From Edaphocola flava (GTDB lineage: Bacteria > Bacteroidota > Bacteroidia > Chitinophagales > Chitinophagaceae), in contig NZ_SAIQ01000002.1 of the NCBI RefSeq assembly GCF_004118155.1, forward strand, positions 310,001 to 374,000: a stretch of 64,000 nt of DNA. Direction: 5' to 3'. The stretch's first letter is position 1. Each line of letters begins with the position of its first letter. The notes below the pieces were generated by a model. It was not told the DNA's origin, made no database searches, and worked only from the letters and a program-made list of their open reading frames with translations. Made by a program: the position numbers and the translations under genes. Below are positions 31,860 to 63,292 of the stretch, in pieces.

Positions 31860-32275
31860 GACTATCCGCATGTAGTAACCTTTTTTCTTCGTCCTTTTGT
31901 CCGGCAACAAAAGGACCAAAAATGCCTTTGTTTTCATCAAGGCGATTGCGGTGCACCGCCATTTTGTACCGTTGCGTGCATTGATCGTCTGAGCTTAACG
32001 TGTGATTCGTTCGCTGCTCAACGATCGCAGCTCCACTCCAAAATGGCTATCGCTGTGATGAAAACAATAAGCGATCCGTACCGTACAGATCGCTCCAAAT
32101 GGCCTTATAAATCCGGCGTTAAGAAAATCATTGGCTCGGTCGATAAAGTCGGAAACCACTGTCTGAGCGCAGCGAGTCTGGTTTGCGACCGGCCGACACA
32201 TTGATTTTTAGCCAGGGATTTATACAGCCTTGATTTTTTTGCGGTACCCTTTTGCATCAAGGCAAAAGGTAGCAA
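31860..32275 (+). repeat. 416-bp dispersed structured repeat, copy 1
   Basis: This stretch matches the reverse complement of 62877-63292 over its whole 416 bases; similarity stops sharply on both sides, and both copies have the same length. It fills most of the gene-free gap 31834-32398 between the convergent pgk and CarboxypepD_reg-like genes. Internal inverted repeats include: GTCCTTTTGT/ACAAAAGGAC (31891-31916); a long imperfect stem with arms GTTTTCATCA...GCCATTTTG (31930-31966) and CAAAATGGC...TGATGAAAAC (32039-32065); a palindrome GCGATC...GATCGC (32071-32093); and CCTTTTGC/GCAAAAGG (32248-32269). A 68-codon reverse frame inside is cut short in copy 2 and is probably not a gene. Confidence 0.9.
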
Positions 32276-60763: not shown

Positions 60764-62332
60764 ATGCCACAAAAAGTAGACATCAGGGTAAGCCCGCAAA
60801 TGGCCCAGGACGAGGAGCAGTTTAAAAAAGCATTGGCACAGAAGCTTAATGTTGCCCCCCGTCGTATAAATGCATACCAGATCTTACGCCGTTCGATTGA
60901 TGCGCGCAGCCGCAATATCGTGGTGCAGATGCAGGTCAATGTATTTGTAGAGGAGCCGTTTCAGGATGCTTATGCTTTTAGCCCGGCATTGCAGAAGGTA
61001 GAGCATGCCCGTCCGGTAATAGTCGCCGGAGCCGGACCTGCAGGCCTTTTTGCAGGATTACAATTAATAGAAAAGGGCCTGAGGCCGATCATAGTAGAAC
61101 GGGGTAAAGATGTGCGTAACCGCCGCCGTGACCTTGCCGCTATGAATAAACAGGGAATCGTAAATCCCGAATCGAATTACTGTTTCGGTGAGGGTGGGGC
61201 CGGTACCTATAGTGACGGTAAGCTGTATACCCGTTCGAATAAACGAGGCAGCATTTACCGCAGCCTGCAGTGGTTTCACTACTTCGGTGCTACAGAGAAA
61301 ATCCTGTACGAAGCCCATCCGCATATCGGTACCAACAAATTGCCGCATATCATCGTAGCCATGAGAGAGGCCATAGAAGCCTGTGGCGGACTGGTGTTGT
61401 TCGATACCAAAGTGACTGACCTGGTGCTGGAGGGAGATACACTGAAGGGGGTAATGGTTAATGAAAATGAACAGATCCTGGCCGATGCGCTGATACTGGC
61501 CACCGGACACTCTGCCCGTGATATATTTGAATTACTGCACCGTAAAAATATTAATATTGAAAGCAAGCCTTTCGCTTTAGGTGTGCGGATCGAGCACCAG
61601 CAGGCGCTGATCGACGCTACACAATATCATTGCCCGGTAGATCAGCCTCGGAGCGAATACCTGCCTCCTGCCTCCTATGGGCTCGTGAGCCAGGAGCTGG
61701 ATCGTGGTGTGTTTTCGTTCTGTATGTGTCCCGGAGGTATTATAGCCCCGGCCAGTACGACAGAGGGTGAGCTGGTGGTGAACGGATGGTCTCCGTCCAA
61801 ACGGGACGGGACTTTTGCCAACTCCGGTATGGTAGTAACTGTAGACGAGCAGGACTTTGCCCGTTACGGATTCACCGGACCACTGGCAGGTATGCAGTTT
61901 CAGCAAATGGTAGAGCGTAAAGCCTGGCAAGCCGGTGGCGGAAAGCTGGTGGCCCCTGCACAGCGCATGACTGATTTTGTACGCAATAAAGTGTCCAATA
62001 CGCTGCTGGATTGCAGTTACCTTCCGGGTACCAACAGTGCCCTGATGAGTGAGATTCTGCCTGAAGAAGTATACAATTCTATGGCCAAGGCATTTGTCAG
62101 CTTCGGGAAAAAGATGAAAGGCTATTATACAGAAAATGCCATGATACTGGCTACAGAATCCCGTACCTCAAGCCCGGTGCGTATTCCAAGAAATGAGGAT
62201 AGTCTGCAGCATCCACAGATCAAAGGATTATTTCCTTGTGCAGAAGGAGCTGGTTATGCCGGTGGTATTATCTCTGCTGCAATGGATGGAGAGAAGGTGG
62301 CCGGCAAGGTCTGGGAATATTACCAGGATTAA
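60764..62332 (+). CDS. FAD-dependent oxidoreductase of the YhiN-like/'FAD-dependent protein' family
   Basis: The 522-residue protein has a ~75-residue N-terminal ferredoxin-like domain, then the FAD loop VIVAGAGPAGLFAGL (GAGPAG at 89-94), ERGKDVRNRRRD and NYCFGEGGAGTYSDGKLYTR, and a late GLFPCAEGAGYAGGIISAAMDG FAD-binding end. This layout is shared by a large uncharacterised family of bacterial flavoproteins found across Bacteroidota and Firmicutes. The substrate is unknown. A strong terminator follows. Confidence 0.92.
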   Translation: MPQKVDIRVSPQMAQDEEQFKKALAQKLNVAPRRINAYQILRRSIDARSRNIVVQMQVNVFVEEPFQDAYAFSPALQKVEHARPVIVAGAGPAGLFAGLQLIEKGLRPIIVERGKDVRNRRRDLAAMNKQGIVNPESNYCFGEGGAGTYSDGKLYTRSNKRGSIYRSLQWFHYFGATEKILYEAHPHIGTNKLPHIIVAMREAIEACGGLVLFDTKVTDLVLEGDTLKGVMVNENEQILADALILATGHSARDIFELLHRKNINIESKPFALGVRIEHQQALIDATQYHCPVDQPRSEYLPPASYGLVSQELDRGVFSFCMCPGGIIAPASTTEGELVVNGWSPSKRDGTFANSGMVVTVDEQDFARYGFTGPLAGMQFQQMVERKAWQAGGGKLVAPAQRMTDFVRNKVSNTLLDCSYLPGTNSALMSEILPEEVYNSMAKAFVSFGKKMKGYYTENAMILATESRTSSPVRIPRNEDSLQHPQIKGLFPCAEGAGYAGGIISAAMDGEKVAGKVWEYYQD

Positions 62333-62350
62333 ACTATTGAAGCAACATAA

Positions 62351-62390
62351 AACATTAGCGGCCCCAAACTTTGGGGCCGCTAATGTTTTT
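62351..62390. terminator. Terminator after the FAD-dependent oxidoreductase
   Basis: AACATTAGCGGCCCCAAA pairs with its complement across a very short loop and ends in T5. It lies 18 bases after the stop codon and could act on both strands. Confidence 0.9.
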
Positions 62391-62412
62391 ATACAACCAT
62401 TGCGGACAAAAA

Positions 62413-62449
62413 CGGAACATTGTATTCCGGTATGGAGAATGTGTTTCCG
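62413..62449 (+). promoter_or_regulatory. Two tandem 17-bp dyads, candidate enhancer-binding-protein sites
   Basis: CGGAACATTGTATTCCG (62413-62429) is a perfect 5-bp inverted repeat with a 7-base spacer. TGGAGAATGTGTTTCCG (62433-62449) shares the half-sites and lies 20 bases further on, two helical turns. The second dyad centre is about 73 bases upstream of the -24 element, a usual distance for activators of sigma-54 promoters. That they bind a regulator is inference. Confidence 0.45.
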
Positions 62450-62513
62450 GAAAATGGAATATATAATAGTGTTTTGTTGTTGTAAGGGTCTGATTTTCAA
62501 TTGTTATTTGTTT

Positions 62514-62529
62514 TGGCACGCTATTGGCA
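62514..62529 (+). promoter_or_regulatory. Sigma-54-type -24/-12 promoter
   Basis: TGGCACGCTATTGGCA matches the consensus TGGCACG-N4-TTGCA at all defined positions except one (TGGC for TTGC). The invariant GG (62515-62516) and GC (62527-62528) have the correct spacing. It lies in a gene-free region with no ORF directly downstream. Transcription would start near 62540. Confidence 0.55.
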
Positions 62530-62539
62530 TATATCATAA

Positions 62540-62737
62540 TTGTAATCAGTAGTGAACTTTACAGATTTTAGTATAAGGGTTAATTATAGTTATAGTATGA
62601 AGTAATTTTTTTAGTATTCTTCTTTACAGAATCAGACGGAGCTGTATGATTTGTAACAAAATATTTTGGGAAAGACCATAACATAGAGGAGTAAATGCAA
62701 AAAGCGCCGGAGTGTCTACTCCGGCGTTTATTTTTTT
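62540..62737 (+). ncRNA. Candidate sigma-54-dependent small RNA (~198 nt)
   Basis: The boundaries are inferred: start from the -24/-12 element, end from the strong terminator at 62701-62737. No ORF of convincing size lies within; an 11-codon frame and a 36-codon frame from 62695 (which runs through the terminator hairpin) are both unlikely. The body is AT-rich with a CAAAATATTTTG palindrome near 62655-62670. Its targets cannot be read from the sequence. An alternative is that the hairpin ends transcripts arriving from the right on the other strand. Confidence 0.4.
62701..62737 (+). terminator. Strong rho-independent terminator in a gene-free region
   Basis: CGCCGGAGT (62705-62713) and ACTCCGGCG (62718-62726) pair across a GTCT loop, extended by A-T and G-T pairs, and are followed by TTTATTTTTTT. 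The reverse-strand T run is shorter (CTTTTTG), so forward termination is favoured. No coding gene ends nearby on this strand. The remaining gap to the repeat (62738-62876) shows nothing I can name. Confidence 0.85.
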
Positions 62738-62876
62738 GTACTGTCTGGGCTTCGTATTTCGGTTTTACCAGAACTTACTTAACTTATCCCGGTAAAGTCG
62801 GATGAAACTTGAGGATATTAGTGGCCCTTAAAAAAAACAGGCATAAATTATTTCTTTGTTTTTCAATTATAGTTAT

Positions 62877-63292
62877 TTGCTACCTTTTGCCTTGATGCAA
62901 AAGGTACCGCCAAAAAATCAAGGCTGTATAAATCCCTGGCTAAAAATCAATGTGTCGGTCGGTCGCAAACCAGACTCGCTGCGCTCAGACAGTGGTTTCC
63001 GACTTTATCGACCGAGCCAATGATTTTCTTAACGCCGGATTTATAAGGCCATTTTGAGCGATCTGTACTTGTACGGATCGCTTGTTGTTTTCATCACAGC
63101 GATAGCCATTTTTGTTGGAGATGCGATCGTTGAGCACCGAACGCTTCACACGTTAAGCTCAAACGATCAGTGCACGCAACGATACAAAATGGTAGTGCTC
63201 TGGAATCGCATTTGATAAAAACAAAGGCATTTGTTGTCCTATTGTTGCCGGACAAAAGGACGAATAAAATAGTAGCCTACATGCGGATAGTC
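62877..63292 (-). repeat. 416-bp dispersed structured repeat, copy 2
   Basis: This is the inverted copy of 31860-32275, with the same length and the same order of hairpins. Differences are scattered; the central palindrome GCGATC...GATCGC (63058-63081) keeps its arms while its loop differs from copy 1. One stem (63243-63268) has a mismatch in this copy. It ends 8 bases before the stop codon of the convergent methyltransferase gene. The short frame seen in copy 1 meets a TGA after 35 codons here, which argues against coding. Confidence 0.9.

Follow-up and report, generated by a model that had tools for sequence, protein, structure and literature searches.

The window analysed here, a stretch of 64,000 nucleotides from the soil bacterium Edaphocola flava, contains a gene-free block. 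A gene for a FAD-dependent enzyme ends before it, at 62332, and beyond it a methyltransferase gene runs on the opposite strand from 63999 down to 63301. In order, the block comprises a perfect inverted repeat, a pair of operators, a box that is nearly palindromic, a -24/-12 element, some 195 bases and a terminator of 12 pairs followed by a T-run (Table 1). The inverted repeat is probably a terminator that shields the downstream unit, and the box is possibly the site of a DNA-bending protein. The block was initially annotated as a candidate small RNA gene read from a sigma-54 promoter. The strong forward terminator claimed there is real: its stem (62702-62729) contains 12 pairs, seven of them G-C, followed by ATTTTTTT, and the region 62300-62900 contains four terminator-like sites vs. 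0.4 in shuffled sequences. A convincing open reading frame is also lacking, as had been claimed. The ORFs of at least 30 aa in or touching 62540-62737 are one of 34 aa (minus strand, 62580-62684), one of 36 aa (plus strand, 62695-62805) and the end of another that begins at 62193; the 36-aa ORF meets a stop after 17 codons in the sister species Edaphocola aurantiacus. The window has no match in Rfam at the gathering score, and comparison of the block with Rfam at E ≤ 5 gave 11 weak matches, all far under the family scores. A phage or plasmid origin of the block was considered and rejected, as no match was found. A dispersed repeat of about 415 bases is present in the window at 62877-63292 and 31860-32275, and also in L020, L022, L023, L024 and L025 and beside rpoN in L028; its long copies are 85-92% identical, and it adjoins several of the RNA units described below.

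Table 1. Features of the block, in window coordinates.
Feature	Position	Strand	Remarks
Inverted repeat	62349..62389	.	Arms of 20 nt with 100% complementarity; lies after the FAD-enzyme gene and before the promoter
Distal operator, TTCC-N7-AGAA	62425..62439	+	20 bp before the proximal operator in 14/16 copies
Proximal operator, TTCC-N7-GGAA	62445..62459	+	
Near-palindromic box CTGATTTTCAA, TTGAT-N-ATCAA type	62490..62500	+	Start 24 bases before TGGCAC in 16/16 copies
Putative sigma-54 -24/-12 promoter with TATA after it	62514..62533	+	Kept in copies
Predicted non-coding RNA, ~195 nt	62540..62737	+	12 further related units aligned; found by model R1
Conserved RNA core	62615..62694	+	
Intrinsic terminator	62702..62737	+	Stem and T-run; compensatory changes among units

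Using the DNA of 62333-62760 as a query, we found matches in two of five genomes of the genus, the window's own (G000) and that of the sister species E. aurantiacus (G001); the three other congeners are referred to as G002-G004. A composite pattern (TTCC-N7-GGAA, 40-68 bases, TGGCAY-N5-TGG) occurs nine times in G000, seven times in G001 and not at all in G002-G004, while the reversed pattern is absent from all five genomes. An eighth G001 promoter, at C1:583,562, is outside the 16 counted copies because its TTTGC at -12 was missed by the pattern. Sigma-54 promoters have the consensus form TGGCACG-N4-TTGCW. The element at 62514-62529 (TGGCACGCTATTGGCA) deviates from it by one mismatch, as the initial annotation had stated, and shows GG and GC (or a near form) 10 bases apart in the TGGCAC-N5-TTGC context. 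A lone match of this kind is no evidence, since 0.77 sites of such quality are expected by chance in the 64-kb window, and the strength of the sigma-54 case lies in the copies: both the sister orthologue and the other copies retain the element with its spacing. The invariance of TTCC, GGAA, TGGCAY and TGG is partly by construction because the pattern demanded them; no such demand was made on the spacing, the distal operator, the box or ATATA. All 16 copies have TGGCAC and, following the -12 element, ATATA. The distance from the start of the proximal operator to TGGCAC is 69 bases in 14 copies and 68 in two, out of 29 spacings that the pattern permitted. The tandem dyads of the initial annotation survive as paired operators 20 bp apart, in a shifted register. 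The originally proposed xGGAx-N7-TTCCG framing was not kept: read as GGA-N7-TTCC, 62413-62429 is CGGAACATTGTATTCCG, a dyad disrupted in the sister species (CGGGTCATGGTATTCCG); the two operators of Table 1 are intact there and recur in the other copies. Two observations weigh against the sigma-54 assignment. The -12 base pair is GT instead of GC in several copies, and one of the four sigma-70-like sites of the region (vs. 2.5 in shuffles), matching at 10 of 12, coincides in part with the -24/-12 element. A sigma-A promoter, of consensus form TTTG..TAnnTTTG, was rejected; TTTG-N17-23-TAnnTTTG occurs in 0/16 copies and a loose -7 box in one.

Seven of the nine G000 promoters head a related, terminated RNA unit of approximately 180-200 nt: the window unit, five units clustered at C9:254,500-256,700 and one near C9:191,700. 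G001 has six such units. In the window unit we place the start near 62540, 12 bases after the -12 element. Terminators are on the right strand in all five cluster units, with the T-tail interrupted in units 3 and 4. The 13 units of the two species, aligned from the -24 element onward without the two protein-gene leaders of each species, have a mean column identity of 72%. The RNA model R1 was built on nine of them. Those of cluster positions 3 and 4, four units in all, were omitted because the alignment had shifted a helix strand by one base in the position-3 type and the full UUCUUC strand is missing from the position-4 type; R1 still detects these four. It gave seven strong matches in G000 and six in G001, none in the three congeners at E ≤ 1, and a match in one of 117 genomes of the family. 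A core pattern searched in 84,980 species genomes hit six DNA stretches, two from E. aurantiacus and four without a model match. By these searches, the RNA has been found in just two species.

Comparison of the window locus with its G001 orthologue revealed unequal conservation. The RNA core (80/80) and the terminator (38/38) are identical, together 118/118, as is the stretch from the box to the -24 element (24/24), followed by the -24/-12 element with TATA (19/20), the operator stretch (36/39), the inverted repeat (33/36), 62391-62421 (28/31), the RNA 5' part (67/75) and the spacer (25/29). The end of the preceding ORF is 94% identical (498/532), and past the terminator identity falls to 57/68, after which the sequences no longer align. 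Selection on the RNA core is the simplest reading, since core and terminator are 118/118 identical vs. 498/532 in the end of the preceding ORF. The comparison of close genomes suggested in the initial annotation thus found the -24/-12 spacing and the terminator conserved, and the RNA core conserved above the adjacent gene. Folding is less informative outside the terminator. Without it most of the 13 units fold no better than shuffles (z from -2.07 to +0.9), and with it z ranges from -1.42 to -4.57. The candidate core helices (62615-62623 with 62685-62693, a hairpin at 62625-62655 and a weak one near 62664-62680) are weakly supported: the named helices pair in 95.8% of the alignment cells and RNAalifold, unaided, found the central hairpin and the terminator, while the pairs that changed on both sides are terminator pairs only. 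Shine-Dalgarno use is rare in Bacteroidota. A Shine-Dalgarno-like stretch before an ATG, AGAGGAGTAAATG at 62685-62698, is present with slight variants in 13/13 RNA units and has no conserved ORF after it; within the RNA it can pair with the UUCUUCU strand at 62615-62623.

The copies allow three other readings of the unit to be weighed. Each of the two remaining G000 promoters, at C8:198,958 and C8:92,981, is followed by a leader of about 330 bases that has its 5' half in common with the RNA and contains no terminator-like site; the ORFs after these leaders are of 562 and 345 aa, respectively. The 345-aa protein carries a type IX secretion sorting tail; the 562-aa protein matches no family above cut-off and, from its N-terminus, is predicted to be secreted. 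As two of nine promoters are built in this way, the window unit might itself be an mRNA leader or attenuator whose terminator is sometimes passed, with the downstream gene as the real product. We consider this very unlikely, given that the next long gene downstream of the window unit is on the opposite strand, that each of the five cluster units has a strong terminator and that sister identity drops past the terminator. A second reading holds that promoter and leader were duplicated along with the dispersed repeat and that the copies have no function. It would account for the occurrence of this repeat within the cluster and adjacent to both the window unit and the C8:198,958 copy, and for the copy number difference between the species (7 vs. 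6). It is hardly credible in view of a core and terminator that stayed identical through changes in the adjacent gene and flanks, and of a promoter spacing kept in all copies. Least probable of all is a small protein translated from the ATG at 62695 after AGAGGAG(G)TAA: AGAGGAG(G)TAAATG or a close form is indeed found in 13/13 aligned units, but the frame enters the terminator, its length and frame vary between units, gaps between units are not multiples of three, and the 36-aa ORF ends early in the sister species.

The five-unit cluster is divergent from a response regulator gene of the NtrC type, with receiver and sigma-54 interaction domains, which is followed by a gene for a FIST-domain protein and then by one for a hybrid kinase with PAS, HisKA, ATPase, receiver and Hpt domains. 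Both the rpoN gene and the enhancer-binding protein that the initial annotation proposed to look for are present. The rpoN gene is intact and encodes all three sigma-54 domains, and the predicted activator would supply the enhancer-binding protein for the candidate upstream sites. A close activator orthologue occurs in two of the five genus genomes, G000 and G001, which are those having the RNA; in G002-G004 the best activator matches that span most of the length reach 35-39% identity, and the promoters and the RNA (E ≤ 1) are missing. In the family, orthologues at E ≤ 1e-120 were found in 44 of 114 genomes, own included, and 29 of the 46 non-own places were used as loci (one, L064, begins at a contig end). 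Near the activator-orthologue starts TTCC-N7-GGAA occurs 13 times in 11,541 bases vs. five times in the remainder of these loci (about 112,000 bases), an enrichment of approximately 25-fold. The background, being the rest of the loci, is largely coding and less A+T-rich than the pre-activator stretches, and four other spaced palindromes, which control for that, gave 0-3 vs. 2-6 occurrences in the same stretches. Since the operator is enriched and present at 10/29 loci, it goes with the activator, though not in every orthologue, and the 19/29 orthologues without a strict operator alongside weigh against the assignment. So does the presence of four activator-domain matches above 200 bits in the genome, any of the other three of which may be the regulator. 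The FIST gene was rejected as a general activator partner, being within the 1.5-kb flank at 2/29 orthologue loci. At L057 and L058, from two other genera, a sigma-54-like promoter points away from the activator orthologue and apparently precedes a gene for a single receiver-domain protein.

The sequence itself shows the promoter anatomy, the copy number, the joint occurrence with the regulator, the link between operator and regulator and the selective conservation; transcription and its start, binding, the pairing with the kinase and action in trans are deduced. Based on the rpoN gene, the activator gene, the kept -24/-12 element and the conserved core, the sigma-54-dependent small RNA of the initial annotation is supported in an extended form: with a probability of roughly 0.8, the block is a member of a multicopy small-RNA family controlled by a sigma-54 promoter and an NtrC-type activator. 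In the mechanism that we propose, the activator would be phosphorylated in response to a signal, and the kinase is presumably the hybrid one whose gene lies downstream in the same cluster. The NtrC-type response regulator would then bind the two operators, centred about -108 and -88 from the predicted start, and loop over approximately 90 bp to the sigma-54 polymerase, opening the -24/-12 promoter, and a non-coding RNA of about 195 nt would be made, ending at the 62702-62737 terminator. Seven loci, five beside the regulator gene and two solitary, would together make related RNAs, and two protein genes, one with the type IX secretion tail, would be under the same promoter. A signalling pathway with an RNA output would in this way also control cell-surface proteins.

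The likeliest role of the RNAs may be Qrr-like, that is, redundant trans-acting RNAs that would give a graded or amplified post-transcriptional output. The Vibrio Qrr RNAs are described as several related small RNAs co-activated by the NtrC-type LuxO at sigma-54 promoters, downstream of kinases (PMC4878744). The Edaphocola family would resemble them in its several paralogous small RNAs (seven units here), shared operators and one presumed NtrC-type regulator, and differs in that five units lie in one cluster and in the absence of an Hfq match. The action of Qrr RNAs reportedly uses Hfq. Nine of nine genomes examined, the window's own included, gave no Hfq match, so the Hfq partner of a Qrr-type circuit was not found. 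The redundant copies suggest dosage-sensitive trans action, as reported for Qrr (PMC4878744), and we rate action in trans by base pairing as plausible at slightly below even odds. A different comparison is offered by CrcZ and CrcY of Azotobacter and Pseudomonas, RpoN-dependent small RNAs reported to antagonise Hfq-Crc, with crcZ adjoining the activator gene cbrB (PMC6292655). The Edaphocola units likewise have a putative sigma-54 promoter, and five of them adjoin an activator gene; unlike CrcZ/CrcY, they have no long A-rich repeat stretch, in a genome without an Hfq match. By analogy with these RpoN-driven RNAs, the Edaphocola RNA might be a sponge that titrates an RNA-binding protein and does not pair with mRNAs. 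The multicopy output of one motif set, the repetition of CTTTACAGAT and AGAGGAG motifs within units and the AAACAAA- or CAAACA-rich RNAs predicted under the same promoter in other genera would fit a sponge, which we regard as rather unlikely, Hfq, the target of CrcZ, being missing from 9/9 genomes examined. Titration of Hfq itself was rejected, as Hfq was not found, which also speaks against a CrcZ-type sponge that acts on Hfq/Crc by means of A-rich repeats.

Small RNAs driven by sigma-54 are already known, and small-RNA control in Bacteroidota, where Hfq was not found in the genomes examined here, is poorly understood. The initial statement that sigma-54-driven RNAs are little described in Bacteroidota appears fair; one sigma-54-linked putative RNA is in print, Rfp36 of Flavobacterium psychrophilum, a putative regulatory RNA with a sigma-54-type motif at its mapped 5' end (PMC9723704). 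Set alongside by description, Rfp36 is similar in being a sigma-54-linked putative RNA of this phylum, and differs from the Edaphocola family as a single RNA in the published table, which names neither an activator nor a function for it (PMC9723704). FopS and GibS of Bacteroides thetaiotaomicron are multicopy paralogous small RNAs of a phylum poor in Hfq, and FopS, in contrast to the Edaphocola RNAs, is reported under canonical sigma-ABfr promoters (PMC11697453). The GibS model (RF04182) scored the block at 24.2 bits, vs. a gathering score of 115, which does not place it in that family. In the literature covered, which left preprints and most subscription journals outside its scope, no paper describes the Edaphocola RNA family in its title or the start of its abstract. 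What is new is the multicopy RNA family together with its activator and operator code. As a test system the locus is compact, with a single activator, a fixed promoter code and seven redundant RNAs, besides three congeners without the whole set. It would link a sensory pathway to an RNA output and surface proteins.

The same operator-promoter code was sought in other Chitinophagaceae, and the fetched loci outside the genus were read by eye. The composite pattern matched in 13 of 117 family genomes with one control match, and a stricter pattern in 11 of 394 genomes, also with one control match; several other matches of the 117-genome search, in apparently coding DNA, are probably due to chance. 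Some matches head sequences without a long ORF. G024 has three copies (L128, L135, L136) of an AAACAAA-rich sequence of this kind, of which none was found in six congeners, and in G082 (L126) a CAAACA-repeat stretch without a long ORF is followed by a strong hairpin with a T-run. G069 and its congener G212 have a common short unit whose terminator stem differs between them in a compensatory way. Other matches head protein genes. Five copies in G372, three of them at contig ends, and two in G300 stand ahead of genes that start alike; at L145 and L147-L151 (G372, G300) and at L144 (G327) the code heads near-identical genes for small, secreted-looking proteins. DUF4402 was detected in L147 and L149 (one G372 and one G300 gene scanned), with L144 below the cut-off. 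In G037 the code heads a gene for a NusG-domain protein. These loci support the view that the pathway output varies between genera and may have been an RNA more than once. Our wider proposal is tentative, and we hold it as somewhat improbable: one conserved two-component/sigma-54 pathway with the operator TTCC-N7-GGAA may have repeatedly acquired unrelated non-coding RNAs in Chitinophagaceae, namely the seven of Edaphocola, the three of G024, that of G082 and that of G069/G212, with DUF4402 or NusG-domain outputs elsewhere. If true, a counterpart of the Qrr and CrcZ circuits that works without Hfq would have arisen on several occasions under a single activator. The operator-promoter code predicts further non-coding RNAs elsewhere in the family.

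Two other sigma-54-like promoters were encountered in the genus. In G000, on the minus strand of contig C1 (L092:1354), a TGGCAT-N4-TTGGCAT promoter with a similar TTGATTTTCA box sits between another activator gene and a kdpA gene (KdpA by Pfam); given this form, TTGG at -12 may be usual in the genus. In G002 (L090, 3045 to about 2850, minus strand) and in G004 (L093) a gene-free unit of about 190 nt follows the sigma-54-like promoter TGGCACAGTTATGGTA and has a terminator hairpin directly before another activator gene. The two copies are near-identical within this unit while the upstream stretch drifts, and they are possibly a second sigma-54 RNA of the genus.
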